From Candidatus Saccharimonadota bacterium (GTDB taxonomy: Bacteria > Patescibacteriota > Saccharimonadia > Saccharimonadales > Saccharimonadaceae), in contig JAFWSJ010000014.1 of the NCBI GenBank assembly GCA_017524405.1, positions 1 through 64,000 on the forward strand: a DNA stretch of 64,000 nt, given 5' to 3'. This document shows, piece by piece, positions 5,865-52,107 of the stretch. Positions within the stretch are counted from its first letter, which is position 1. Each line of letters starts with the position of its first letter. The notes beneath the pieces were generated by a model. The model had not been told where the DNA came from. It did no database searches and saw only the letters and a list, made by a program, of their open reading frames with translations. Position numbers and translations under genes: made by a program.

Positions 5865-7118
5865 TTATTTCTTCCAGCTTTTGCGTGGAGTGCCGAGGAG
5901 CTTTTTGAAGTTGATTTTGCTCGTGAATTCGATAGCGTTTTTGCGGAAGATATGGGAATCGAGTTTGACTACTAGCGCGCCGATAATTGCGATTTCTGCG
6001 AGCGCAACCCAGAACTCCCATGCTTGGAGGTTGCCGAAGACGGCGCGGAGCATGATGGCGATTGGGGCGCTTGGCGGGAAGTAGCTAAGGAAGTAGCTAA
6101 GCGCGGTTGGTTCGACCATGAGGGCGCTAATGAAGAAGATTGGCAAGATGACCATGATGACCATGAAGCTTGAGTAAGAGTTTGCATCCTTTGCGGTTGG
6201 TGAAATGACGCCGACAAAGAGACTCATCGCAGTGAAGAGGAAGTAGGAAACAATGAGGAATAGGAGATATTGGAGAATACTCAAGACGTCTAGGCTGATG
6301 TTGAAGTTATCCGGGAAGATGCTTGCGCCCTGGGCGATTTTGTAAAGCGCGAGAACCGGCAGAACGAGCACGAGGAGCTGAATGATGCCCACTACCATGA
6401 GCGACACGACTTTACCGAGCATGAGCTGAGCTGGTTTGAGGCTGGTGAGGATGAGCTCGCTAATGCGGTTTTCCTTCTCTTCGACCATAGCTGCCGTGAG
6501 ACGCTGACCGAGCACGATCATGAGGATATAGAAACATGCGAGGCCGATGGCTGGGCCGACGATCGATCTAATGCGCTCGCCATTATCGATGACGTGGTTG
6601 TCTTTGTTGTCGTAAGTTGTTGTGTCGTAGTTGATTGCGCCCGTGATGACGAGGTAATCGACCTGATCGACATTTTGCAATGCGGTCATATTTAGAATGG
6701 AGCGGATTGGCGAAGAATAGTCAGAGATGAGGCTAGATTTTTCTGGCTTCGTATAGATCTCTACTTTCTTTGCTTCGGCGAAGTCGCTCGGGAGGTAATA
6801 GAAAATGTCATAGGTTTTGTCTTTGACTTTTTCGATGCCCTCGTCTTTGCTAGTTACAAGTTCGGCACTTTGTCTTTCGCCGCTTGCGTTGACAAATTCT
6901 GGCGTTTTGATATAGCCTGATTCGTCATAAATTGCAAGTTTGCTGTCTGAAGTATCGGTTGCTGACGAAATAGTTTCCTCGGCGTTATATCCGACGAAGC
7001 CGGCGAACGCGATGTAGAGCGCAAAGCCGACTGGGATGAGAATGGCGGCAATCCAGAAGCTAGGCTTCTTGAGGCTACGCATAATCTCGAAACGGATGAC
7101 TTCTAGGGTTTTGTTCAT
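5865..7118 (-). CDS. ABC-2 type exporter permease (NatB-like)
   Basis: A 417-aa membrane subunit with the ABC-2/NatB arrangement: one N-terminal membrane helix at about 20-40, a large extracellular domain to about residue 175, then five hydrophobic helices. The cytoplasmic sequence after the second helix, MVEEKENRISELILTSLKP, is a family hallmark. It starts 1 nt after the ATPase gene and must form the transporter with it. NatAB homologues export Na+ or other small substrates; the substrate here is not known. Confidence 0.88.
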   Translation of the reverse strand: MNKTLEVIRFEIMRSLKKPSFWIAAILIPVGFALYIAFAGFVGYNAEETISSATDTSDSKLAIYDESGYIKTPEFVNASGERQSAELVTSKDEGIEKVKDKTYDIFYYLPSDFAEAKKVEIYTKPEKSSLISDYSSPIRSILNMTALQNVDQVDYLVITGAINYDTTTYDNKDNHVIDNGERIRSIVGPAIGLACFYILMIVLGQRLTAAMVEEKENRISELILTSLKPAQLMLGKVVSLMVVGIIQLLVLVLPVLALYKIAQGASIFPDNFNISLDVLSILQYLLFLIVSYFLFTAMSLFVGVISPTAKDANSYSSFMVIMVILPIFFISALMVEPTALSYFLSYFPPSAPIAIMLRAVFGNLQAWEFWVALAEIAIIGALVVKLDSHIFRKNAIEFTSKINFKKLLGTPRKSWKK

Positions 7119-7119
7119 A

Positions 7120-7851
7120 CTATGCCTCCTCCTTTTCGCCGTAAACGTCTACGAAGATTTGATCGAGCGTCTTGTTATTGAACTCTTTGCGAACATCCTT
7201 GACGCTGCCGTAAGCGCGAGCGACGCCGTTCTTTAATAGCAAGACGTCATCACAGAGACGCTCGACCTCGTCCATGTAGTGAGTGATCATGATGATGGTG
7301 CAGCCCTTCTTGTGCTGCTCTTCAATGATTTCCATAAGCAGGCGGCGGTTGACTGGGTCGAAGCCCTTGGTTGGTTCGTCGAGAATGAGAAGCTCAGGGT
7401 CGTTCATGACGCAGATGCCGAGCTGGACTTTCTGCTGCATACCCTGGGAGAGCTTGTTGATTTTGGTCTTTGCGAATTCTTCGAGTCCGACGCGCTTCAG
7501 GTAGTCCATAATCCAGGTTTTTGCGTTTGTTAGACCTTTTAGGTGCGCAAAGTATGTCATAACGTCGTAGACGTTCTCTTTTTTGTAGAGACCGCGTTCT
7601 TCTGGCAAGTAGCCGATACGCACGGCGTCACCTGGTTCAAATTGTTTGCCATTGATATGTAGTGTGCCCTTGTCGGCGAAGTATAAGCCGAGGAGTGCAC
7701 GGATGGTTGTGGTTTTACCGGAGCCGTTACTGCCGAGAAGGCCAAAGATCTCGCCGCGCTTAACGCTGAACGACAAATCTTTGATTACGGTTTTGCCGGC
7801 AAATGAGATTTTGAAGTGCTCGACTTCAATGATATTGTCTGATTTTGCCAT
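7120..7851 (-). CDS. ABC transporter ATP-binding protein (NatA-like)
   Basis: About 243 aa with all motifs of an active ABC ATPase: Walker A GSNGSGKTT, signature LSQGMQQK, Walker B LLILDEPTKGFDP and the H-loop in MITHYMDEVE. It energises the permease encoded 1 nt downstream. The start was moved to the ATG at 7851 because TATAAT on the minus strand ends exactly 6 nt before it; the longer frame would begin upstream of the promoter. The mRNA is therefore predicted to be leaderless. Confidence 0.92.
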   Translation of the reverse strand: MAKSDNIIEVEHFKISFAGKTVIKDLSFSVKRGEIFGLLGSNGSGKTTTIRALLGLYFADKGTLHINGKQFEPGDAVRIGYLPEERGLYKKENVYDVMTYFAHLKGLTNAKTWIMDYLKRVGLEEFAKTKINKLSQGMQQKVQLGICVMNDPELLILDEPTKGFDPVNRRLLMEIIEEQHKKGCTIIMITHYMDEVERLCDDVLLLKNGVARAYGSVKDVRKEFNNKTLDQIFVDVYGEKEEA

Positions 7852-7929
7852 GAGAATATTATAGCGCAGAACAGAGAGTTTGTTGAGCTTATGCTTCACG
7901 ATTTCGGCTGGCTTTGACAGAATATGGGC

Positions 7930-9378
7930 ATGAAAAAATTCATTATGTTTTTAGCCATCAGTATGTCGTTTATCTCGCCGAATTGTTACGCGATTGAAAA
8001 CGAATGAATAGATAATTGCCCGTATGTTGAAGCATTGTTTGCGCGAGGGTCGGGCGCAGAAACCTACCATTCCGAAGTCTACTACGAGGTTGCTGATGGG
8101 CTCGAGCTGGCATATCAAAAATATGGGCTAACATATCGTTTACGTGAGGTTGAATACCCGGCTGTGCCGATCGCGAATTTGCGGCAGATTTTCGAGGCGT
8201 ATATTTCGGCTGGACGTGCGTATGAATTTGGCGCGAGCGTCGAGGCTGGCGTGCGGGACGTATTGGATTATCGCGACTATATTCGTTGGAAATGTCCGGA
8301 CACGAAGTTCGTGTTAATTGGCTATTCGCAGGGTGCGATGGTCATGAAAGACGCGGCTAAGAGTTTCGATAGCGATGAGCTGCGTTTTGTTTTGACGATA
8401 GGTGATCCGGAGACGTATTTGCCCGAAGGCGAGGGTTGGTTCCCGCGGGCCTGTACTTCTTCGAACATTGACTATAGCTTGTCGCATTGGCGCTATTATG
8501 CACCCGAATGCCATACGTTTGAGGGATTGTTCGGCGGCGCGAAGCCGTACGAGCCGGAGAAGTTTCGGAATAAGTATGCGCTGATGTGTAATGTAAATGA
8601 TTTTATCTGTGGGAGTTCGCATAATCCATTTCGGAATGATGGGCATACAAAGTATGCTGGTGCTGGGCTAGTGCGCGATGCGGTGTGCGATTTAGTAGAC
8701 GCAAAATTCCGGGACGAGCAAGTGTATCTTGAGGGATTGACGACTAGGCCGGCTAGTAGTCGCGAGTCGTCCGATATTGTGCTCGCGACGCAGCAGGTTT
8801 CTTCGAATCGGGTCTATATGCAGAGGATTGGCGCTGATCGGCTACTGATAACTTGGGAAACTGTGCCGGGCGTCGAGAATGTTCTGATTAGCCTAAATGG
8901 CGTTGTGCTTGGATATGTCGAGGCGACGCGTGGCGAGTTAGAAATTCGCGACATAGATTTCAGGATCGAGAACAAAGTCAGCGTGGCATATTTGGCGCCT
9001 GGTGGCGAGGTTTTAGGGAGTGAAGCCTCTGAGCCGCCGACGCTAATTCTGCCGCTCGATAACGAAGCGTCTTTACCGGTCAATTCGGCGCCGATTCCCG
9101 AATCCGAGCCGGAGGTCGCGCCTGTCGATGAGTCTGTCGATGCGGTACCGCCTGCCGACGACGCGAAGCATGATAGTGACTCGCCTGACGAAACAATAAC
9201 GAGCGATTCTCCTCCCGTTACAGAAAGCATTCCGGCGATTAGTCCCACGAAGACTTCCGCGAGTAGTTTCTCGACTCGGGATTCGCCAGATAATAAGCAA
9301 ACTGGAATAAAAATCACAATAGCGCTTCTTGGCGCGAGTGCTGCCCTATTCTTGTTTTGGTTTGGGAAACGGCGCTAG
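7930..9378 (+). pseudogene. secreted cutinase-like esterase with in-frame UGA
   Basis: The reading frame starts at 7930 with a signal peptide (MKKFIMFLAISMSFIS, cleavage after CYA), meets TGA at 8005-8007 (codon 26), then continues in the same frame without a further stop to 9378. The downstream part begins NCPYVEALFARGSGAE, the typical cutinase N-terminus, and has GYSQG (Ser133), Asp224 before ICG and His239: a complete serine-hydrolase triad. A beta-rich FnIII-like stretch, an acidic Pro/Ser linker and an anchor follow (NKQTG, hydrophobic helix, KRR). The catalytic part looks intact, so readthrough, a very recent nonsense change or a base error are all possible. Without the UGA it would be an anchored lipid/cutin/mycolate-type esterase. 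Confidence 0.75.
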
Positions 9379-10665
9379 TTATTTGTCGAGCCCGGCGAGA
9401 GTTGTCGGCCAATTCAGGCGCTGGCCGATGGAAGTTTGATCTGCCTGGTCGGCTAGACGTGTAATGCGGTTGCCGGCACTCGTTGTTGCATGATAGTCGT
9501 ATGAGTATTTGATGGTCGGTTTGTCTAGTTTGGCGGCTTGGATTTTTTCGAAGCAGGTCGACTTATCCTTGAGGCATTTCTCGCCGAGTGCGTTCCAGGC
9601 TTCTAAGTCGCTGCTATCGGCCGAGATGGTGATGTTTGCTTCAATTGCTGCGCTGCGCGGGACTTCGTTGTTCGCCGTCTGATCGAACATGAAGTTGCCG
9701 AGCGAGTATGTAATCAGTTTACCCTTATAGGCTTCGGTGTCTTGAACTGTGTGTGGATGGTCGGCGATGACGGCGTCGGCGCCCAAATCGATGAAGCGGC
9801 GATAAATGTTTTGACGGAGCTGATCGTGCGAGGTTTTGTACTCTGCGCCCATATGCGGCATGACGATTGTCGGCAATACTTCGGCGTAGGTCTTGACGTT
9901 TTGCTGGTAGTCGTCGCCCGGCACGCCGTAGACGCCGTGTGCGCTACAGAACCCGAATGGGAACTTCATTTCTTCGGTTTTTCCGTTGTCTAATGTGGCG
10001 ACGACGGGAAGCACTAGCACACTGCAGTTGTTAATGTCGGATTCGTCGTTAGCGTATTCCGGATCATTGCGGTCATTGCCGGTGCGCTTTGGCGTGCCGA
10101 AGTATTGGATGTTGTATTCGTCGAGATATTTGCGAGTTGTTCGTAGCCCTTCTAGGCCTTGATTGCCGGCGTGGTTGTTGCCGAGTAGAAACGCGGTGAA
10201 GTATTTTGCGGCTTCTGGCAAGTAGTCTGGATCGCAGTTGAATTTAAAAATCTTTTCTTCCTCTGAGTAGTTGTGGCCCTTGTCAGTAACTGGGCATTCG
10301 AGGCCACCAATCCAGGCTTGATATCTGTTTCGCTCCAATGTGTCGAGCTGGGAGAATGGATATTTGACTCCGAGCTCTGACGCGCGTGCGTTTTGGTTAG
10401 TTCTTCTTCCCCAAAATGTGGTGCCAACGAAGAGATATTTGGCGTTCATTTCGGTGATTTCTGGGTCAGGAGGAGTCGTCGGCGTATTAATCTCTGAACC
10501 TGAGTTGTTGCTGGTGCTTACACTAAATAACAGAGCGCAGACTGCTGCCGCGACGAGTAGGACGCCTGCTCCTGCAAAAATGAATGGTTTCTTTGAAAAT
10601 TTCTTTTCTTCGCTATTGCGGTCTGGTTGCTGCGACTTTATGGGCGCGGTTTTCTGCTGTGTCAT
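9379..10665 (-). CDS. CapA-family membrane-anchored phosphoesterase-like protein
   Basis: A 428-aa protein with a short basic N-terminus, one membrane helix at about 28-48 and an external CapA domain. Family motifs include the GGLECPVTD segment, LLGNNHAGNQG, PHMGAEYK, and ADHPHTVQD followed by YSLGNFMFDQ. CapA proteins belong to the metallophosphatase superfamily and are known from poly-gamma-glutamate capsule synthesis; no capB or capC is nearby, so a capsule is not implied. Its start overlaps gatD by 53 nt with its own GGAG site. The operon context of murT-gatD points to a wall-related role. Confidence 0.82.
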   Translation of the reverse strand: MTQQKTAPIKSQQPDRNSEEKKFSKKPFIFAGAGVLLVAAAVCALLFSVSTSNNSGSEINTPTTPPDPEITEMNAKYLFVGTTFWGRRTNQNARASELGVKYPFSQLDTLERNRYQAWIGGLECPVTDKGHNYSEEEKIFKFNCDPDYLPEAAKYFTAFLLGNNHAGNQGLEGLRTTRKYLDEYNIQYFGTPKRTGNDRNDPEYANDESDINNCSVLVLPVVATLDNGKTEEMKFPFGFCSAHGVYGVPGDDYQQNVKTYAEVLPTIVMPHMGAEYKTSHDQLRQNIYRRFIDLGADAVIADHPHTVQDTEAYKGKLITYSLGNFMFDQTANNEVPRSAAIEANITISADSSDLEAWNALGEKCLKDKSTCFEKIQAAKLDKPTIKYSYDYHATTSAGNRITRLADQADQTSIGQRLNWPTTLAGLDK

Positions 10666-36815: not shown

Positions 36816-39800
36816 TTAATTCTCGAGCATCGCTGCGCGGAAATCTGCAACTAATTGTTGATCATATTCGAGATTGTCGCCGGAGCCATAGTAGAACCAC
36901 TGCTCTACCTCTTCGTTTGTTTTTATAAACGAAATCATATGAAGATACTTCGTTGTAGGATCCATCTCTCCGCCATTAGGCGTTGGGTTCGTGCCTTTGT
37001 GATGATAGAAGCGCGTACGGTCAGGTCGTCCGCTAAGCGACGTGAGCTCATAGTCTCTTGCGCGCGTTTCATAGTCTACTCCAAGAAGAGCTTCTGCGAG
37101 ATATGCTAGAGTACCAGTTCGGTCTGCGCCATGAGAGCAATGGAAATAGATACTTTTTCCGTCTCTTACGTCCTCCATCAGCTGCTTGAGGACGCTTCTA
37201 GTATATCCGTAATACGTCGTTTTGTCCGTATTAATATTGTAGTGTATCATCCCCAAATCTTGTCGGTAGCCATCAAAGTGCGAACCTTTCTGATCGTTCA
37301 CCCCCCTTCTTAGGTCGTACTCGTAATTGATACCGAAGTCTTGTTGTAGAGTTGCTACGTCCGCATCGTCAAGCTGTTCGCCGCGCAGGAGAACCCCATA
37401 TTTTAGCTTTTGCCCATTCAGGCCAACCATGCCGCCAAGGTCGCGTACATTGCGCGCGGTCGTTAGGGATATCATTCTTCGCGTGCCGATGGCTTTTACG
37501 TAACCATATACGTTTGAGTCGGCCTCGGATACCCACTTGTATGTTTCGCCCGGTATTAGGTTTATAAGCCGGCCGTCGTTTCCCCCCGCGTATGCTACTT
37601 GCTCGCCTTCGTTTCTTTGTATTTCGTCGGATAGATAGACTTTCACTGGTCCGGACACGCCAGTATTATATGAGTTTGAGCGATCGCAATATACCGTTCC
37701 GTCTTCTCGGTATTTATAGGTGCTCGAGAAATCAGTCGAAGTGTCTGCTCCGGTATTCGTGACCGTTTTGCATTTATTGCCATCGAAGTTGTTCTTAAGC
37801 TTTTCGTAGAGGTAGTCTCTATCGTCAGGATAACGTTCTTGCCCCTTCCACTCGTCGATATTGGCCAGGTAGTTTCTGACAGCTTCGCTTTCCACGTAAT
37901 GCTCTGCAACGATTTCTGGGTCTGTAGCTGGCTCTTCGGCTTCAAGCTTTATGTACATATTACTCAGTTTCCCGGTTAGGAAGCGGTTTTTCTTAGGAGT
38001 ATATGCGCCTTCTGCCGGAGTCGATGTTGTGCCGTCTGGGTATGCGCCAAACCATGCCGAGAGGCTGAAGTGATACGTTGGATCGGTCGGCGAAGGGGAT
38101 TTGCTCTTTGTTGAGGTGGTCCAGGTGTCAGTCGCCTCGTTATAGGTCTGCATCGTAATTATAGCCTTGCCATTTGCCGGGTTATATTCTCGCTTGACTC
38201 GGATTTTCTTTACGTCACTAGCCGCTTGCGTAATTTTTTCGTTATTACTCGTGCTGCCGCCAGCGTTCGTATTGATTTCGATTTTATCGTCGCTTCTTCG
38301 TATGATTAGGCCTGCGGCAAAATCTGTGCTGCTATTAATTTTGGAGCTGTCTTTGGCGTTAAAGAATGTCTGCTGTTTATTGTCGTTTGTCGTAGTTGCT
38401 ATTTGTTTTGTATAGTCGTATTCGTCAATTTCGAAATAGACTTCATATGCTTTTCCGATGTTTTCGTCGCTATATAGTGAAACTCCAGTATCTATGTATT
38501 GGTCTCCGGCATAATCGCAGTTTTCGCCCTTGACGAGCCCGCTATTGCCATTATTTTGTGCCTCAAATTCGCATTGGCCTTGGTGCTGCCAGACGATTGG
38601 CATAGTATCAAATGTCCAGTGAGCATAGAATACAGCTTCTCCAGTTACTGTATATGGCGTTTCTAGTTTTACCCCCTCGCTTGCTTCGGTGAACCATCCG
38701 TCGAAGATATAGCCGGAACGAGTTATTCCTGGAAGATCCGATTCCTGGAGTGCTTCGCCTACTCTTTCTGTGTAGGCAATAGTCGCGTTCCCGTTTTGTG
38801 GGACGAATGTCAATTGTGTATTTGTGTATACTGTGACGCTAATCTGAACAACCTCGCCAGACATGACGCCCCTAATTCCGATTGTCGTTGTGCCGTTGGC
38901 TACTGCTGTCACGGTTCCGTCATCGTCGATTGTAGCTATACTGTTGTCGCCTGAGGCAAATTCGAATTGTTCAATGTCGCTTGCGTTATCGATGGCTATA
39001 TTGCCCGTGGTACCGATTTCGAGCTCCATGCTATTTGTGTTAATGGCGGCTTGTGTCACGTCTTTAATCCAATGCGCATGATATGTGGTTTCGCCCATGA
39101 TTGGCGTTGACGTGGTTAGCTTTTCTCCGCCATTTTCTGTCGTATACCAACCGTCCAGGATATAGTGTTCGAGTGACGACGTTGGGAGCGTCGAAATGCT
39201 GTCGCCTTCGGCGATGCCGGTGATGTCCGCGACGTCACTACCGCCATGAGCATTGAAGTGGACGACATACTTCGGAAGGTCTACCGTAACATCAATCTGC
39301 TGTTCGAGCATAGAATATGAGCCGACTAGTGCGATTCTTGTGGTGCCGGCGCTAACCGCCGTGACGTTCCCTAGGTCGTCTACTGTCGCGATGCTAGTAT
39401 CGCCATTGCGGTATCCGTATGGCTCGAGTTCGTCCGCGTTCGTTACCGTGATTTGGGCTGATTCGCCGCGCGTAAGATTAATATTGGAGACGATAGCATT
39501 TGTTATGTCTTTGAGCCAGTGAGCCTCGACGGTGATATTGCCCATCACTGGCGTGTCGGCTGCAAATGCCGTCGTACTGTTTTTTAGGAACCAGCCATTA
39601 AAGACGTAGCCCGTGCGAGTCGGGTCGGCAGGAAGCGTTCCAATTGAGCTTCCTTCTTCGACATCGGTAATGTCGGCGATTTCGTTTCCGCCCTTCGTAT
39701 CGAAGTGAACGGTGTATCTTGGGAGAGTTACTGTGACTGGGATTTCGAAGGTTTCGCCAGAGCGGCTGCCGGTGAGTACGATGTTCGCTTGGCCATTAGA

Positions 39801-42800
39801 TACGGCGGTAACCTTGCCGTCTTGGTCTATCGTGGCGATTTGGTCGTTGCTAGACGACATAGTGAATGGCTCGATATTGTTCTTGTTGGTTATAGTTAGA
39901 TATGCTTCGTCTCCGCGAGTAAGTTCGAAGGAGCTTGGCGATGCAATAGCCTGCTGAACGTTACGTGCCCATTTTGCGATGATCTTAACATCTTCGGTAG
40001 GCGTGTAGCCGTCTGAGATTTGCGTATTTCCAATGAACCAACCATCGAAAATATACTTTTTGCGCGTAGTGACTGGGAGCGTCTCGATTGAGGTGCCCTT
40101 TTCGATTTGCATTTTCTTATAGGAGTTGTCTAGGGTGCCCGATTTTGCGTCAAACTCGACTTGGTAGTAATTCCAATCCATCTCGCCAAGGCGAATCGAT
40201 AGATTGCTCAGTGTACCGACTAGAACATTCTTTGGTTCTGGGTCTTCGGTGCCATCATTTGGATAAGCGCCAAACCATGTGGTCTGGTTGAAGTATTGAT
40301 TGAAGCCGCTGACATCCTGGAGCTCGAATAGGTTGCCGCCGTTCATCGAGATATAGACGACTCTATTGTGGCGAACAAGTTTAATAGTTTGGAACTCGGT
40401 GTATGGCTTAATGTAGTTTGCCTCAAGGTAGCCAGAGCCCGTTTCGTTTAGGAGCGCTGAGCGAATGTCGATATTGTTTCCGCTCTTGCGAACAACGACG
40501 CCTGGCGATTTTGCTTGAGGAAGTGGGCTAGGTGGGTTTGGGAGTTGTGATGTAGGATGCGTCGTGCTGATTTTGTTGCTAACAAAAGCTGCTTGCGCCT
40601 CAACTTGATTTGGTGAGTAGCTGTCGATATTGAAGGAGATTTCATAATCTTTATCGAAGTTTTCTGAAGTGTTGAGGGAGATTCCGGTGTCTACGAATGT
40701 CTGGCCCACAAAGTTAGTATCGCCAAATTGGCAGGTGCTGCTCGTTGTAATTGTGCCGTCTTTGCCATTGAATATGCAGTCGCCCTCGACGCTGAATACG
40801 ACTGGGAATTTGTCCTCCCATACAGCATATAGGGTTACGGCGCCGCTGGTTGCGAGGTTGCTTACTTCTTCGCCGTCGCCATATTCTATTGCCGTCGCAT
40901 TCGGGTCTGTTGACCAGCCTTTGAAGTTGAAGTTGCTGCGCTGGAATTGATTAGTGCTTAGGTTGGCGGCTTGATCGTAGGTCATGCCTTGCGGGTTCAT
41001 TGATCCGGTCGCATCGTCGGCGTTTTTATCGAATGCGATAGTGTATTTTTTTGCGGTCCACTGCGCGTAAAGATGATATTCGCCACCGTCTTCCGCCGTG
41101 AGGTTCTGGACCGGCTCCTTGTCGCTATACCCCTGGCCAGCGTCACTAGCATTTTCATTCCAGTGGTCGAATTGATAACCTGCACGGCTGAAGCTATTTT
41201 CTTCGAGCGCCGTTTCGGCTTGGTCGTAAGTAAAGCTTTGGGTTGCAGTCGCGGTGCTGCCTGGGTAGTTGGCGTGGAAGACGACCGTGTAATTATTTGC
41301 GCGGTAATTTGCGCCAATGATTGCGTCTTCTGCTCCCACCGTGAAACTACGCGAAGCATCGGTCACGTTGTCTGACCAACCAGTGAACGTATAGCCATTT
41401 TTGGTGCCGGCCGTAAGGGTGCCGGTTTGCTCATAATAATACTTCTGGCCGCTCGTGAAGGTGTCGCTCGAGATTTGCGCAGAATTGTCGCCAAAAGTGA
41501 TCGTATACTGGTTGCGGGTATAGTAGTAGTCGATGACCATGTGGCCGTCACCGGTAATTTTCTTGGACTGAGCGGCTGGCGCGGTGAATCCGGTGTAGGA
41601 TTCGCGGTTCGGAGTGGCCATCGTGTCTGTTGTGCCGGTTTTGTCCTCGGTTCTCGCGAGCGCGTAATTATCTCCACCACCGATATTCTGCTTGTAATGG
41701 TTTACGGTGTAGGCGGTATTCGTGTTCGCGGTCCAGAAGGCGTAGAGTGTAATTTCTCCTTCAGCGAGAAGATTCTGCACGGACTCTTCGTTGGCATAGC
41801 GATTGCCGGTATCGTTACTTTCGGTATTCCAGTGATCAAAGGTGTAGCCTTCGAGTATGAAGCTATTTTTGCTTAGCTTTTCTGCCTGGTCGTAGGTTAA
41901 GGTTTGGGTGCTCATGCTTCCCGTTGCGGCGCTGTTATTCTTATTGAAGCCAACGAGATAAGTGTTTGGAGTATAGATTGGCTTGATCGAGGTAGCTTCG
42001 GTCAGTTCGATCGAGATATTCTTCGTAGTTTCGCCGTTGCTCCAGTTAGCAAAAACGTAGCCAGTGCGATCTTTAGCGGTTAGTGTTACTTGTGTGCCGT
42101 ATTTATAGTTGCCCGCTGGCAGTGATGATGTCGTGTCGTCGGTGTCCTCGAGCACTAGAGCGATGAGCTCGCGATTATAGTCATAGACGATTTCGGTGCT
42201 GCCGTCTTTGGCGATAGTTGCGGTTTTTGCGGCAGGCGCAATAAAGCCGGCATAAGTCTTGGTGTCCGGCGTTGCGGTTTTCCCGGCTACCCCAGTCTTC
42301 GATTCGGATTCGACCACAGTATAGTCGTCATTCTCGAGGTTTTGCTGGCGATGAATGACGGTGTATTTTGCCGATACCTCTGGCTCTTCTGGTGCATCTG
42401 GCGCATCTGGTTCATCTGGGGCGCTTGGCGTCTCTGGCTCGTCTGGAGTAGATGGTGTTTGGTTGTCGGAAGGTTTCGTATTCGGCGTATTGTTGGATGG
42501 CGTAACTGGTGAAATTGGCTCCGGTTCTGGCTCTGGGGTCGGTTCTGGTTCTGGGTCTACTTGTGGAATTGGATCAACTGGTTGCGGTTCTGGCGTGCCT
42601 GGTTCGATTTTGACCTGGACCGGCGCAAGAATCAGCATCGGAACGAGGATGAGTGCGGAAATAAAAGTCGTGATAAACGATAGAGACTTTTTCGTCTTGA
42701 TTTGACGGACGAGGAAAAAGACGGCTAGGGCAACCAATGCAATCGCTGCTACCCAGCGTAGTATACCAAGCGCAGTAGAAACGCTGACAAAGGTATAATA

Positions 42801-42812
42801 CTCTCTTGTCAC
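36816..42812 (-). CDS. giant surface protein with C-terminal tyrosine phosphatase domain
   Basis: 1998 aa. Two membrane helices (about 14-35 and 45-65) with a basic loop between them put the rest outside the cell. Next come a Pro/Glu stalk (70-145), MucBP-like units (147-213, 366-433), InlB B-type repeats ending LYAFW/YAQWT/YAVWE (about 285-667), two LamG-like domains (668-880, about 1405-1610), and three alternating InlB plus BIG2 units of about 150 residues (885-1400). The last 200 residues are a dual-specificity/LipA-type phosphatase: RNVRDLGGM and HCSHGADRTG with Cys1892 and Arg1898. GTG start after AGGAGG; -10 TATAAT at 42834-42839. It likely binds and signals to a partner cell, an inference. 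Confidence 0.88.
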   Translation of the reverse strand: MTREYYTFVSVSTALGILRWVAAIALVALAVFFLVRQIKTKKSLSFITTFISALILVPMLILAPVQVKIEPGTPEPQPVDPIPQVDPEPEPTPEPEPEPISPVTPSNNTPNTKPSDNQTPSTPDEPETPSAPDEPDAPDAPEEPEVSAKYTVIHRQQNLENDDYTVVESESKTGVAGKTATPDTKTYAGFIAPAAKTATIAKDGSTEIVYDYNRELIALVLEDTDDTTSSLPAGNYKYGTQVTLTAKDRTGYVFANWSNGETTKNISIELTEATSIKPIYTPNTYLVGFNKNNSAATGSMSTQTLTYDQAEKLSKNSFILEGYTFDHWNTESNDTGNRYANEESVQNLLAEGEITLYAFWTANTNTAYTVNHYKQNIGGGDNYALARTEDKTGTTDTMATPNRESYTGFTAPAAQSKKITGDGHMVIDYYYTRNQYTITFGDNSAQISSDTFTSGQKYYYEQTGTLTAGTKNGYTFTGWSDNVTDASRSFTVGAEDAIIGANYRANNYTVVFHANYPGSTATATQSFTYDQAETALEENSFSRAGYQFDHWNENASDAGQGYSDKEPVQNLTAEDGGEYHLYAQWTAKKYTIAFDKNADDATGSMNPQGMTYDQAANLSTNQFQRSNFNFKGWSTDPNATAIEYGDGEEVSNLATSGAVTLYAVWEDKFPVVFSVEGDCIFNGKDGTITTSSTCQFGDTNFVGQTFVDTGISLNTSENFDKDYEISFNIDSYSPNQVEAQAAFVSNKISTTHPTSQLPNPPSPLPQAKSPGVVVRKSGNNIDIRSALLNETGSGYLEANYIKPYTEFQTIKLVRHNRVVYISMNGGNLFELQDVSGFNQYFNQTTWFGAYPNDGTEDPEPKNVLVGTLSNLSIRLGEMDWNYYQVEFDAKSGTLDNSYKKMQIEKGTSIETLPVTTRKKYIFDGWFIGNTQISDGYTPTEDVKIIAKWARNVQQAIASPSSFELTRGDEAYLTITNKNNIEPFTMSSSNDQIATIDQDGKVTAVSNGQANIVLTGSRSGETFEIPVTVTLPRYTVHFDTKGGNEIADITDVEEGSSIGTLPADPTRTGYVFNGWFLKNSTTAFAADTPVMGNITVEAHWLKDITNAIVSNINLTRGESAQITVTNADELEPYGYRNGDTSIATVDDLGNVTAVSAGTTRIALVGSYSMLEQQIDVTVDLPKYVVHFNAHGGSDVADITGIAEGDSISTLPTSSLEHYILDGWYTTENGGEKLTTSTPIMGETTYHAHWIKDVTQAAINTNSMELEIGTTGNIAIDNASDIEQFEFASGDNSIATIDDDGTVTAVANGTTTIGIRGVMSGEVVQISVTVYTNTQLTFVPQNGNATIAYTERVGEALQESDLPGITRSGYIFDGWFTEASEGVKLETPYTVTGEAVFYAHWTFDTMPIVWQHQGQCEFEAQNNGNSGLVKGENCDYAGDQYIDTGVSLYSDENIGKAYEVYFEIDEYDYTKQIATTTNDNKQQTFFNAKDSSKINSSTDFAAGLIIRRSDDKIEINTNAGGSTSNNEKITQAASDVKKIRVKREYNPANGKAIITMQTYNEATDTWTTSTKSKSPSPTDPTYHFSLSAWFGAYPDGTTSTPAEGAYTPKKNRFLTGKLSNMYIKLEAEEPATDPEIVAEHYVESEAVRNYLANIDEWKGQERYPDDRDYLYEKLKNNFDGNKCKTVTNTGADTSTDFSSTYKYREDGTVYCDRSNSYNTGVSGPVKVYLSDEIQRNEGEQVAYAGGNDGRLINLIPGETYKWVSEADSNVYGYVKAIGTRRMISLTTARNVRDLGGMVGLNGQKLKYGVLLRGEQLDDADVATLQQDFGINYEYDLRRGVNDQKGSHFDGYRQDLGMIHYNINTDKTTYYGYTRSVLKQLMEDVRDGKSIYFHCSHGADRTGTLAYLAEALLGVDYETRARDYELTSLSGRPDRTRFYHHKGTNPTPNGGEMDPTTKYLHMISFIKTNEEVEQWFYYGSGDNLEYDQQLVADFRAAMLEN

Positions 42813-48013: not shown

Positions 48014-48089
48014 TGGTGGAGCACAGGAGATTCGAACTCCTCACCTCTTCTATGCCATAGAAGCGCTCTACCAAATGAGCTAGTGCCCC
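48014..48089 (-). tRNA. tRNA-Ala(GGC)
   Basis: Acceptor GGGGCAC/GTGCTCC, anticodon arm CTTCT-ATGGCAT-AGAAG giving GGC, T-arm GAGGAG-TTCGAAT-CTCC in register, encoded CCA. Confidence 0.95.
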
Positions 48090-48170
48090 AGTGGGTTTTA
48101 TTATAGCATAGATGCAAAAAATCTTCCATTTTCGCGCTTGCTTCATTTTGGTTATGCTATAATTGAATCA

Positions 48171-48836
48171 ATGAAGTTGAGAGGTGTTATAGACTGGGCT
48201 GTTAGCCATTTTAAGGCGGTTTTAGCCGTTCTTCTTGGCGCTAGCGTCGTTATGTTTGTTGCCACAATTTGCATTTTTAATTTTGGCGATCCTAGCCCTA
48301 CAAAAACTCTACTAGATTTAAATATTGCCCCGCTATCTAGCAAAATTACTTTAGACGGGAACGATATTGGGCAAGGCACATCTGAGGTTGTGCCCGGAAC
48401 GCATCATCTTGCTTTCTCAGCGGAGGGTTTTAATAGCAAAGAATATGATATTGAGGTAAAGGCTAATCAAACGAACAGCGTCTCTGACTATTTGATGAAC
48501 AATGAAAACGGCCTTGAGTATTATTTATTTTCTATAACCGATATGGAGGTGTTGAAAACCGTTAAAAGCGAAGACGTGAAGGAGTTTATCGATAATTATA
48601 ATCATGCATATACCCTATTCCCTAAGCTTCCGATAGAGTATACATTTTATACTGACTCTGGGCTTGGTAAAGTAATCATAAAAGATGGGCGCAGCTCTCG
48701 TAGATGCAAAAAATATCTATGTCTGGAAGTGGCTTCTATTACTGATACGCTTACGGAGGCAAAAAGCGGTGTTATGGAGGCTCTTCATAATAGCGGATAT
48801 AGTATAACTGATTACGAGGTGGTATATGACTTTTAA
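48171..48836 (+). CDS. membrane-anchored PEGA-like protein
   Basis: A 221-aa protein with one membrane helix (about 16-37), then a PEGA-type beta-sandwich (SSKITLDGNDIGQGTSEVVPGTHHLAF) outside the cell and a mixed C-terminal domain. PEGA domains are common in surface proteins of Gram-positives. TATAAT (48158-48163) ends 7 nt before the ATG. It overlaps the hydrolase gene by 11 nt and is the first gene of the three-gene operon. Confidence 0.75.
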   Translation: MKLRGVIDWAVSHFKAVLAVLLGASVVMFVATICIFNFGDPSPTKTLLDLNIAPLSSKITLDGNDIGQGTSEVVPGTHHLAFSAEGFNSKEYDIEVKANQTNSVSDYLMNNENGLEYYLFSITDMEVLKTVKSEDVKEFIDNYNHAYTLFPKLPIEYTFYTDSGLGKVIIKDGRSSRRCKKYLCLEVASITDTLTEAKSGVMEALHNSGYSITDYEVVYDF

Positions 48837-51414
48837 GAAGGTTTTAACTAGTATTTCTCTTTCTATATCGGCTGTTGTTATTGTTTCGAGCCCGGCGTTT
48901 GCTCTTACTAATGCCTATCTTGATAAGTTTGCCAATAATGACATCATTTTCTATAACCCCGAAGAGTGTAGCGAAACTGCTCAGTCTTCTCTTTCGGGCA
49001 GTAACATCGAGGAGAAGATCCTCAATTATTATCTCGACCATGGCTTTACCGAATCGGCTGCGGCCGGCATTCTCGGCAACGCTTTTGCTGAGTCTGGTTT
49101 GCAGGTCGCTCGTCACGGCTATTCTGGTGATTTGTTCTTTGGGCTTTTTCAGTATAAGAAGGAGTACGCGAAAACTCTTTGGAAGAAAATGGAGGATGCG
49201 GGTCTTCTAGATATTGCCGAGAATAAGAAATACGATGATTCTAGCGAAAACAACAATGGTTATGCCGTCGATAAGCAGGTCGAGCAGAATATGCCCGGAG
49301 CAATCGACAAGCTGCTAAAGATTTACCTAGACTACAACCTTTCGACCGAAGACTATCGAAGCGACAAATGGCAGAAGACAATCAACGAGTGGGAAGGTAA
49401 AGAGCATGCTGCTGAATATGCTGCCGAGGTTTTCCTTGCTGAAGTAGAAAAGGCCGTTCACAATAATGGGGCCGAGCTGATTTACTACAAGAGTAATAAT
49501 AAATATCAATCCGCCAAGAGGCGCCGCGATGCCGCAAAGGATTATTATGAGAAGTACTTTGGCGCTAATGGTTCCGGTGTTTCCCGTACTAAGAGCGTTT
49601 CTGCCGATTATTGTTGCGACCCGAACTCGCAGCTTCAAACTTATTCTGTCTACCCTAGCACCAAATATACTATGGGCGCGACTGAAGACGAAGTGAACAA
49701 GAATATCGCGAAGGTTAGCTCATATATTGCTGGGATGAAAGGAATTACGGTTTCCGCTACCTCCGATAGCGTGAAGTCGGCCGCCTCTTATCTAGTCAAT
49801 CATTATGAGAAGCAGAGTGGAGCCGTTCCGGGCGATACGGAGAAGTTTATCGCTTCTTTGACGGGCTATTCAGGCATGACAGATTCATTTACTAATAAGA
49901 CTATTTCCGATGCCGTGCGTTCTGTGTTGATTGACGGTAAGCGTATCTTGCCTGGTCAGGTTTACGATAAAGTTAAGCCGAGTGACGCCTCAAATATTAA
50001 TAACAACGGCGTAGCTATTTCTTCATCTGACACTTCTAAATTCTTGCGCGGCATTACTAAAATGACCGTAAATAATAAAACAGTCGTGTTCTGGAGCTGG
50101 TATGACTACTCGAAGAACTCCGGCGATGCTCTTTATTATTACGAAAGCGATCCGCCTTCGCCCAGTGTCCTCGCCGCTTCTGTTGGCACTTCTTCTAATG
50201 GTCGTAGCAGCTCGCATGTAACCTGGAAGAATGGTTGGGTCGACTCTGGTATCGATGGCTACGTTAAGGATGAGGTTACTAGTTCATCCTACTCGTCGCT
50301 AGACTCGAATTTTGGTTCAGCCTTCACTTCTACTTCCGCTAAAGGTAGTGGCACCGGCGCAAACAAAATTACGCTTCTCTCGACCGAATCGTCTTCGACC
50401 GGCGACAAGGCATCTTCTCTCTACAAAAAATCTTCAGGCCAATCATCTCCTCCACACTTTACTGTTGATTTATTTAACAAGAAAACATTCCAGCATGGCT
50501 CTATTAATTCGGCCGCGGCTGCCGTTGACGGCGATGCCGATAAGTATGCTGGCATCCAGATTGCAATTGTAGGATTTAGCAATTCTAGTAAATCGGATGA
50601 TAATTATTATCTTGGCAGCATCGACAAGCTAACCGTTGAGCATTATAAATACCTATATACTTTAGTGAATGCGATAAGTATCGAGACCGGCGTGCCGGTT
50701 TCCGCGAGTGTTGACTGGAGCAGCTCTAGCGCTCTTTCGGCCGACAATGCGAAGAGTTATAAGGGCGTGCTTGGTCGCAAGCATCTTCAGAGTAGTGATA
50801 CTACAAATGTCCCGGTCCAGGTTTGGAAGCAGCTAAGCGAGGCAATGACTAAGGTTGCCGAGGAAAATAATCGCGTTTGCCCTGTTAACTCGACTGGCGA
50901 TGTTGCTGCTCTCCAGAACCTTGTGAAAACAATTGCCCACAATGAGCATATTAGCGATCTCGGTATAGGTTCTCGAAAGAAAGAATATGTTGATTTGCTC
51001 AGTAAGGGAGTCTGGTATTCTGGTGGTTGTAGCGGCAACGACTGCGGTGGCTTCGTGACTACTGTCATGCGTGAAAGTGGTTGGGATAAGGATTATAATC
51101 CAAATAAATGTGGTACCGAAGGATGCACCACGTGCGGCTGTCATGGCCAGGGCTGGTATCTTGAGACTAGCGACAAATGGAAAGATGTGACCAGTGAGAT
51201 AAAGGATAATGATGATGCTATGCCTGGCGACGTCTTGATCAGCTCGAGCCATACTCTGTTGTTTGTCGGAGATATTCCTGGATTCAAGGGCAAAATGGCG
51301 TCGGCCTCTTGGTCGCATGATTGCAGCACTTCTCGCGCGCCGATGGCCGAAAACTCAAATATGTCATACTACATTGGAACTGGTAAATATCGAATTTTTA
51401 GGAAGATAAAGTAA
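48826..51414 (+). CDS. secreted lysozyme + NlpC/P60 wall hydrolase
   Basis: An 862-aa exported protein with a signal peptide (LSISAVVIVSSPAFA). Near the N-terminus is a phage-tail-lysozyme-type domain (EEKILNYYLDHGFTESAAAG, LGNAFAESGLQ with catalytic Glu89, FGLFQYKK). A long Ser-rich middle region follows. The C-terminus is an NlpC/P60-like peptidase: Cys740 in NDCGGFVTTV and His809 in SSHTLLFVG. It could cut both glycan and peptide links of peptidoglycan. Stop overlaps the next ATG (TAATG). Its codon use is AT-richer than housekeeping neighbours. Confidence 0.85.
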   Translation: MTFKKVLTSISLSISAVVIVSSPAFALTNAYLDKFANNDIIFYNPEECSETAQSSLSGSNIEEKILNYYLDHGFTESAAAGILGNAFAESGLQVARHGYSGDLFFGLFQYKKEYAKTLWKKMEDAGLLDIAENKKYDDSSENNNGYAVDKQVEQNMPGAIDKLLKIYLDYNLSTEDYRSDKWQKTINEWEGKEHAAEYAAEVFLAEVEKAVHNNGAELIYYKSNNKYQSAKRRRDAAKDYYEKYFGANGSGVSRTKSVSADYCCDPNSQLQTYSVYPSTKYTMGATEDEVNKNIAKVSSYIAGMKGITVSATSDSVKSAASYLVNHYEKQSGAVPGDTEKFIASLTGYSGMTDSFTNKTISDAVRSVLIDGKRILPGQVYDKVKPSDASNINNNGVAISSSDTSKFLRGITKMTVNNKTVVFWSWYDYSKNSGDALYYYESDPPSPSVLAASVGTSSNGRSSSHVTWKNGWVDSGIDGYVKDEVTSSSYSSLDSNFGSAFTSTSAKGSGTGANKITLLSTESSSTGDKASSLYKKSSGQSSPPHFTVDLFNKKTFQHGSINSAAAAVDGDADKYAGIQIAIVGFSNSSKSDDNYYLGSIDKLTVEHYKYLYTLVNAISIETGVPVSASVDWSSSSALSADNAKSYKGVLGRKHLQSSDTTNVPVQVWKQLSEAMTKVAEENNRVCPVNSTGDVAALQNLVKTIAHNEHISDLGIGSRKKEYVDLLSKGVWYSGGCSGNDCGGFVTTVMRESGWDKDYNPNKCGTEGCTTCGCHGQGWYLETSDKWKDVTSEIKDNDDAMPGDVLISSSHTLLFVGDIPGFKGKMASASWSHDCSTSRAPMAENSNMSYYIGTGKYRIFRKIK

Positions 51415-52055
51415 TGGAAACAGATAGCAAGTACACTGATAAAATACGGATTCTCGCAATTGCCGTTGCCGTCTTCTTCGTCTCTCTGGTGTTTTTCCTA
51501 TATGCTCTTTCGCAGAACCCCAACCCTGTAAAAATAGTTAATCGTTCTACAGAACAGGGTTCTCAGCTATCGGCTAAGGAGTTGTCTCTCGTCAGAGATT
51601 CTCTAAACTCCTTCCTTGGCGGCGAGGACGTAAAGGATGTTTCCATCCGTTGGTCTTCGTTCGTAAAGCCTAGTGAGTCGTATAGGTATTTCTTAGTTGA
51701 TATCGATTCAATACAAGGTACTTATCGTGTTTCTCTGATTGGCGATCAGGTTTTCGTTGAGTGCCCTAATATTGGCGAAAGTAAATATGACAACTTTAAG
51801 TGTTCCGTGCCTGGCTTAGACGGCGAGAGCACTGTCAGCAAGCTTCTAGGTGATATATTGCCGTACCAGGGCTCTGCATCCGGAGTAGAGTATACTTTTA
51901 GGCAATCGAGCAGCTCTGATTTCTTGGTGCACGTTTTTGATTGTGAGAGCGACGAGATTAAAAGGTCGGTCCAGAGCAATATTGATGATCTTATCAAATC
52001 GCGTAATGGCGATCCTTCAATGTTCTCCTTCGAATACGAATATAACGCTTGCTAG
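51414..52055 (+). CDS. membrane-anchored partner of the wall hydrolase
   Basis: A 213-aa protein with one membrane helix (about 13-33) and an external domain rich in Asp/Ser with Cys pairs (FVECPNIGESKYDNFKCSV, HVFDCESDE) that may form disulfides. Family unknown. It overlaps the hydrolase by one base, so the three products are made together; a stabilising or targeting role for the hydrolase is an inference. Confidence 0.7.
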   Translation: METDSKYTDKIRILAIAVAVFFVSLVFFLYALSQNPNPVKIVNRSTEQGSQLSAKELSLVRDSLNSFLGGEDVKDVSIRWSSFVKPSESYRYFLVDIDSIQGTYRVSLIGDQVFVECPNIGESKYDNFKCSVPGLDGESTVSKLLGDILPYQGSASGVEYTFRQSSSSDFLVHVFDCESDEIKRSVQSNIDDLIKSRNGDPSMFSFEYEYNAC

Positions 52056-52058
52056 ATA

Positions 52059-52089
52059 AAAATACCACCCCGTGAGGAGTGGTATTTTT
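52059..52089. terminator. bidirectional terminator
   Basis: AAAATACCAC/GTGGTATTTT, 10-bp stem between the convergent hydrolase operon and rpsI. Confidence 0.9.
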
Positions 52090-52107
52090 GTTGTCCGAAC
52101 AAGCGGA

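Follow-up and report, generated by a model that had tools for sequence, protein, structure and literature searches.

How epibiotic Patescibacteria breach and choose the thick wall of a host is an open question, and it is the question raised by the three-gene locus described here. The locus lies in a window of 64,000 bases, bases 1-64000 of contig C11 (JAFWSJ010000014.1) in the 898-kb genome assembly of a Candidatus Saccharimonadota bacterium (GCA_017524405.1), a very small cell that probably lives on other bacteria. Among named assemblies its closest relatives are labeled "Candidatus Saccharibacteria" and include UBA2834 and one from water-buffalo omasum. The genes, here called P1, P2, and P3, follow one another on the plus strand between a tRNA-Ala gene and the ribosomal cluster rpsI-rplM-rplQ-rpoA, the last four names being assigned by reading the translations of the open reading frames (ORFs). 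On balance, we favor the interpretation that this triplet arose from the VirB1 module of a type IV secretion system (T4SS) and now forms a tethered, exchangeable cassette for wall opening that is subject to host-specific selection. The gene coordinates and reading frames given in a preliminary description of this DNA were correct (table below), as was the coupling of the genes by overlapping frames: P1 and P2 share 11 base pairs, and P2 and P3 share one, between stop TAA and start ATG.

P2 is predicted to be an exported wall hydrolase comprising, in order, a signal peptide, a short N-terminal tag, a lysozyme domain resembling gp13 of phage phi29, a stretch of residues 285-450, a domain with the amidase fold of AmpD, and an NlpC/P60-like peptidase. 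In the structural model, which has a mean predicted local distance difference test score (pLDDT) of 79.0 overall, a helix at residues 3-21 falls within the putative signal peptide. The phage-tail-lysozyme domain named in the preliminary description is borne out by a match of residues 62-244 to Phage_lysozyme2 (PF18013; E value 5.3e-10, 40.1 bits against a curated cut-off of 28.2) and by the fold of residues 55-253, which aligns with phi29 gp13 lysozyme (3csq_D; Z score 12.6, root mean square deviation [rmsd] 3.4, 138 residues aligned, 24% identity). Like phi29 gp13 and phage tail-tip lysozymes, P2 has this fold and a conserved Glu; unlike the latter, it is cellular and has other partner domains and neighbors. 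The NlpC/P60 domain, likewise proposed there, has the fold of the peptidase MepS (residues 669-862 against 8xud_I; Z 9.0, rmsd 6.0, 132 aligned) with conserved C740 and H809; it had no match in Pfam or NCBIfam, and two relatives match NLPC_P60 below the cut-off. No Pfam or PHROG match was obtained for residues 285-450. Foldseek with the whole 862-residue model found no match in the PDB at E 0.001 (best 1.2e-3), a setting in which long models can weaken single-domain scores, and a PDB sequence search with P2 returned just two weak, irrelevant matches.

Between the lysozyme and the peptidase P2 carries a third hydrolase fold, which rules out the bifunctional enzyme of the preliminary description. 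Residues 465-675 align with AmpD (2y28_C; Z 13.7, rmsd 3.0, 157 aligned), and the fold of residues 465-679 is that of AmpD and other N-acetylmuramoyl-L-alanine amidases and of peptidoglycan recognition proteins (PGRPs). P2 is substituted in all three columns that hold the zinc ligands in AmpD, and these ligands are kept in most of the relatives that bear the domain. Because of these substitutions the domain is apparently inactive and has probably become a relic that binds peptidoglycan but no longer cleaves it, a condition with a parallel in the noncatalytic PGRPs.

Residue conservation was read from 30 aligned P2 relatives, hand-chosen among P2-like frames, so that module counts drawn from them are a biased census. 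Y43 and H809 are the sole invariant columns; at I40, P45, E89, and C740, as at some other columns, 90% of rows or more agree. The candidate catalytic residues named earlier (E89, C740, and H809) are thus at their reported positions and conserved, and the N-terminal tag, to which I40, Y43, and P45 belong, is as well conserved as they are. Length and module content vary: across triplets P2 ranges from 498 to 1074 residues, and Pfam modules in its relatives include Phage_lysozyme2, glucosaminidase, GDSL/SGNH, Amidase_2, M23, CHAP, C39, NlpC/P60, and VanY/M15, some of them below cut-off. Judged by these matches, P2 of relatives is a mosaic of wall-hydrolase modules.

P2 has this tag in common with the VirB1-like hydrolase of the only T4SS in the genome. 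Its consensus is D-x-F-A-x-N-N-I-x-F-Y-[DN]-P, and the P2 of the window reads D-K-F-A-N-N-D-I-I-F-Y-N-P-E-E-C shortly after the signal peptide, in a region modeled with low confidence, which fits a flexible segment. The tag recurs at one other place in this genome, on contig C13, in a lysozyme-GDSL-NlpC protein that is 592 residues long and has the same type of lysozyme domain as P2. It is encoded in the sole VirB4 locus found in the genome, in the order PrgI, two-part VirB4, a large gene at the VirB6 position, tagged hydrolase, and PEGA-like protein. TraC matches the first part of VirB4 only weakly, "VirB6-like" is a label given for position and size without a Pfam match, and the PEGA-like protein scores 18.2 bits, below the PEGA cut-off of 20.8. 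Across the genus 44 of the 45 genomes have the tag, at a total of 87 places, as found with a model built from P2 proteins adjoining P1 or P3 and from T4SS hydrolases, which diverged tags can escape; four P2 proteins in triplets (L080, L082, L083, and L084) fall under its threshold. A P1-like gene lies within 4 kb at 73 of these places; the other 14 comprise six beside P3, five directly after a VirB6-like gene, and three at contig ends. In an order-wide sample of 246 genomes the tag (E 0.001) occurred in 22, all of one family, 7 of them from this genus and 15 from other genera.

Two further features of these loci were recorded. VirB4 is split into adjacent genes of about 290 and about 600 residues on C13 (L033:5319-6209 and 6211-8013) and also at L108, L110, L136, L174, and L178; from the sequences, the split is consistent among relatives and is not the frameshift of a single assembly. 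Some loci hold orphan channel-hydrolase cassettes, in which a VirB6-like gene stands directly upstream of a tagged hydrolase with P3 or P1 and no VirB4 occurs in the stretches examined (L102:4600-7749, L106:2005-5058, L107:4243-7503, and L117:704-3796 and 6817-10017).

The partners of P2 are anchored proteins that appear to share a domain. P1 was described as a PEGA-like anchored protein, and its PEGA match (PF08308; E value 1.4e-5, 25.3 bits) does exceed the cut-off of 20.8; its N-terminal hydrophobic stretch, read from the sequence, gives a single predicted membrane helix followed by an extracytoplasmic domain. The AlphaFold2 model of P3 (mean pLDDT 87.9) has a membrane helix at residues 5-33, an alpha+beta domain at about 46-119, and a C-terminal domain at about 136-213. 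P3 has no match in Pfam, NCBIfam, or PHROG, and its fold searches gave no Foldseek match at E 0.001 or below and Z scores of at most 5.6. Comparison of the two families by hhalign aligned the C-termini of P1 and P3 over 72 columns (probability 94%, E 1.2e-7), and on this evidence their C-terminal domains are related. Like VirB8 and TcpC, P3 (in its model) and P1 (by its sequence) have a single N-terminal membrane helix and an extracytoplasmic domain. A second, weak P3-like match in the same genome lies outside the window (G000:C11:92694-93116, E 3.1e-5).

The preliminary description treated the three genes as one unit, an idea that it would have given up had they been apart in relatives; they are in fact neighbors across the genus. 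Complete triplets number at least 34 copies in 31 of 45 genus genomes, a lower bound given that loci were sampled around matches. The scan itself returned 37 rows in 32 genomes, from which we dropped three doubtful ones: one in L082 in which a MurJ-like gene stood for P2, and those of L131 and L098, in each of which a single protein matched both P1 and P3. Thirty of the 34 carry the tag; 31 are ordered P1-P2-P3 and three P2-P3-P1. As single queries, P1 matched 44 of 45 genus genomes, P2 matched 36 of 37 genomes inside the genus and 3 of 24 outside it, and P3 matched 16 of 45; a P1 profile matched 66 of 100 relatives, many of the weak matches being partial and inside longer frames. P1/P2/P3-type genes also recur at a second site (L080, L082-L084, L097, L098, L102, L103, L106, L129, and L130), beside genes that, by their N-termini, resemble murJ and ftsH.

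At the tRNA-Ala/rpsI site the triplet is replaced as a block. Among near relatives the flanking enzymes and ribosomal proteins are 83-100% identical (a range that omits one fast-changing flank gene, 76-88%) and the T4SS hydrolase is 82-97% identical, whereas the cassettes are 20-41% identical and occur in either orientation. Against relative G068 the flanking proteins of the window are 88-100% identical (trpS 95%, rpoA 100%), and P1, P2, and P3 are 41%, 41%, and 36% identical; DNA homology ends 50 bases into P1, reappears in two short patches, and is back 14 bases before the end of P3 (52042). Against G023 the flanks remain close (rplM 99%, trpS 83%, one flanking gene 76%), as do the hydrolase of the T4SS (97%) and the PEGA protein next to it (98%), and the cassette, ordered P2-P3-P1 and inverted, is 27%, 29%, and 20% identical in P1, P2, and P3; here DNA homology ends at 48110 and is back at 52058. 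The G023 cassette is closer to that of G065 (P2 51%, P1 45%, P3 34%) than to that of the window or of G068, although by rplM (93%) and the T4SS hydrolase (57%) G065 is the more distant relative. The tRNA-Ala gene is present at all 10 relatives' loci scanned, and in eight genomes (G034, G063, G029, G030, G018, G026, G009, and G002) this interval is occupied by genes other than the triplet. Simple misassembly is an unlikely cause of these differences, since the cassettes compared lie on long contigs (271, 96, and 137 kb). One family of anchored proteins of about 300 residues, with a shared KPxTFYKKAWFWIIIAVVVLG-like stretch, occupies the site without a triplet and adjoins the triplet in G068 (members at L181:5250-6170, L183:4747-5634, L185:4569-5453, and L073:4651-5553).

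The closest known kind to P2 are the VirB1-like hydrolases of monoderm T4SSs, such as TraG of pIP501 and PrgK of pCF10. VirB8 homologs interact with, and probably localize, VirB1 homologs, and Gram-positive VirB1 homologs are membrane anchored (PMC12857230). In the epibiont S. epibionticum the T4SS is reported to be essential, by a source whose searched text contains neither "lysozyme" nor "peptidoglycan" (PMC10633639), and epibiotic growth depends on peptidase and lysozyme homologs whose genes lie immediately downstream of virB4 (PMC12102498). Like VirB1-type hydrolases and these virB4-adjacent proteins, P2 is a predicted exported protein with glycan-cutting and peptide-cutting domains, and its nearest paralog in the genome sits in the T4SS locus. 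Unlike VirB1-type enzymes, P2 is encoded outside that locus, has an additional zinc-less amidase fold and two anchored flanking partners, and is exchanged as a cassette; its putative cleavable signal peptide also sets it apart from the anchored Gram-positive homologs. The individual enzyme domains are already known; our searches of open-licence PubMed Central (PMC) papers turned up no account of the triplet, its tag, or the exchange of cassettes.

We therefore propose, on these comparisons, a mechanism in which the triplet would be a spun-off copy of the VirB1-like wall-opening module of the Saccharibacteria T4SS. P2 would be secreted via Sec and retained at the cell surface, with the tag at or near its mature N-terminus. 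The tag would dock P2 on anchored P1 and P3, whose C-terminal domains are related, much as VirB1-type hydrolases of monoderm T4SSs are placed by proteins of the VirB8 type. With P2 kept at the point of contact, the lysozyme would cut glycan strands and the NlpC/P60 domain peptides, and the amidase fold would probably only bind peptidoglycan. The wall under attack is probably that of the bacterium on which the cell lives, and strains would swap cassettes as their hosts differ.

The preliminary description left the choice between a contact-dependent system for opening a host wall and a cell-division machine. The outward, host-directed role is favored by the exchange of cassettes among close relatives and by the relationship of P2 to the T4SS hydrolase; that the system needs contact and that it acts on a host's wall are inferences. 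Proteins that face a changing partner fit this pattern, since own-wall enzymes should not outpace their neighbors or swap modules between sister species. Given also the two anchored neighbors of P2, a tethered tool for opening the host's wall is the likeliest role. The own-wall alternative, in which P2 would open the cell's own peptidoglycan for growth or for pilus or T4SS assembly with P1 and P3 positioning it, draws some strength from the genes with murJ- and ftsH-like N-termini beside several triplet-like loci and from the good conservation of the T4SS hydrolase itself between this genome and G023. We consider it unlikely, given that the cassette changes so much faster than its flanks, that its enzyme modules change, and that the triplet is missing from eight loci at this position of the chromosome; a cell-division machine in particular was set aside in view of the module swapping. 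A weapon against competing bacteria, whether rival epibionts or other Gram-positives, would also account for modular enzymes of the endolysin or bacteriolysin kind and, through an arms race, for exchange at a hotspot. In polymorphic toxin systems a constant N-terminal trafficking part precedes a variable enzyme. The triplet resembles them in its constant short tag before variable modules and in its locus-level exchange, and differs in its anchored partners, its wall hydrolases of several modules, and the lack of a recognizable immunity gene, there being no further small gene in the unit. With two of three genes encoding anchored proteins, which suggests tethering over release, we regard a weapon as quite improbable. 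A captured tail hydrolase, or a locus diversified by phage pressure on surface proteins, would be in keeping with a lysozyme domain of phage-tail type whose best viral fold matches are phage hydrolases. No relative of P2 was found in 50,697 phage records or in a viral contig scan, which reaches close relatives only, and a phage gene was set aside on this account; no PHROG match explains P1 or P3, and the cell's own T4SS hydrolase has the same lysozyme domain, so that a phage-related origin seems very improbable.

Several observations weigh against a host-directed, T4SS-derived cassette. No ORF of the window matched VirB4, VirB6, or PrgI, so a physical link of the triplet with a T4SS is unproven, and the tag may be common to P2 and the T4SS hydrolase by descent alone. 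The tag occurs beside P1 alone, P3 alone, or VirB6, which leaves more than one candidate for its partner. In the fold search with P3, the match that bears on a place in the VirB8 family, to the NTF2-like conjugation protein 3ub1_C, is weak (Z 5.0, rmsd 4.1, 72 aligned) and stands at rank 25 among unrelated folds. Two of 10 further P2 proteins have no Pfam match at all, the organism is known from assemblies, and fast cassette change could also stem from phage or competitor pressure.

The remaining features of the locus concern its expression and edges. The triplet was described as having one leaderless promoter and AT-richer codon use than its surroundings. An exact copy of TGCTATAAT lies seven bases upstream of the P1 ATG. 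Of the 31 P1 genes that come first in their unit, 23 have a TATAAT-like box (at least five of six positions, 5-9 bases before the start), where permuted motifs give 9.6 on average and 17 at most. Such a box is not peculiar to the triplet: exact TATAAT stands 5-9 bases upstream of a possible start in 7 of 50 window ORFs of at least 150 residues (0.37 for permuted motifs), for which reason we rejected the leaderless promoter as a special feature of the operon. Leaderless transcription may, from these motif counts, be common in this genome. In a window of 48.6% GC, the GC fractions of P1, P2, and P3 are 0.395, 0.457, and 0.439 against 0.494 +/- 0.030 for the 50 ORFs (triplet included), which places P1 about three standard deviations below the mean and P2 and P3 merely one to two. 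The inverted repeat after P3, where blastn gave reverse-orientation matches at 52058-52091, is probably a two-way terminator by its sequence, and it was absent from the output of a terminator scan. The longest ORF of the window (1998 residues, 36816-42812) lies elsewhere, on the minus strand.

Table. Positions, strands, and supporting evidence for features of the triplet locus, numbered from the first base of the window.
Feature	Position	Strand	Basis
tRNA-Ala (GGC), left edge of cassette site	48014..48089	-	ARAGORN
Extended -10 box TGC-TATAAT, predicted leaderless promoter	48155..48163	+	Sequence and comparison with relatives
P1, single-pass anchored, PEGA domain and C-terminal domain akin to that of P3	48171..48836	+	Pfam, family alignment, hhalign
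P2, exported modular wall hydrolase (predicted), 862 residues	48826..51414	+	Sequence, Pfam, alignment, model, fold matches
Putative signal peptide of P2, residues 1-26, ending A-F-A	48826..48903	+	Read from sequence
N-terminal tag of P2, residues 30-49	48913..48972	+	Conserved I40, Y43, P45; tag alignment; genome searches
Lysozyme domain, residues 55-253; candidate catalytic Glu89 at 49090-49092	48988..49584	+	PF18013, phi29 gp13 fold
P2 residues 285-450, common to relatives	49678..50175	+	Alignment; helices and strands in model
AmpD/Amidase_2 fold, residues 465-679, three zinc-ligand positions substituted	50218..50862	+	2y28_C match, ligand columns
NlpC/P60-like peptidase, residues 690-862; Cys740 at 51043-51045, His809 at 51250-51252	50893..51411	+	MepS fold, conservation
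P3, N-terminal membrane helix and two domains	51414..52055	+	AlphaFold2, family alignment, hhalign
A/T-flanked inverted repeat separating P3 from rpsI, probable two-way terminator, right edge of cassette site	52058..52089	.	Sequence

For the biology of these epibionts, a tentative extension of the proposal is that the tag marks mosaic hydrolases for one docking platform, formed by P1 and P3 or by the T4SS, and that swaps at the tRNA-Ala/rpsI site and other hotspots set which hosts can be opened. A marked, swappable hydrolase cassette would supply candidate host-range genes together with a motif for finding more of them. Should the tag prove to be a docking signal, it would offer an easy way to recognize secreted proteins at the contact between epibiont and host.

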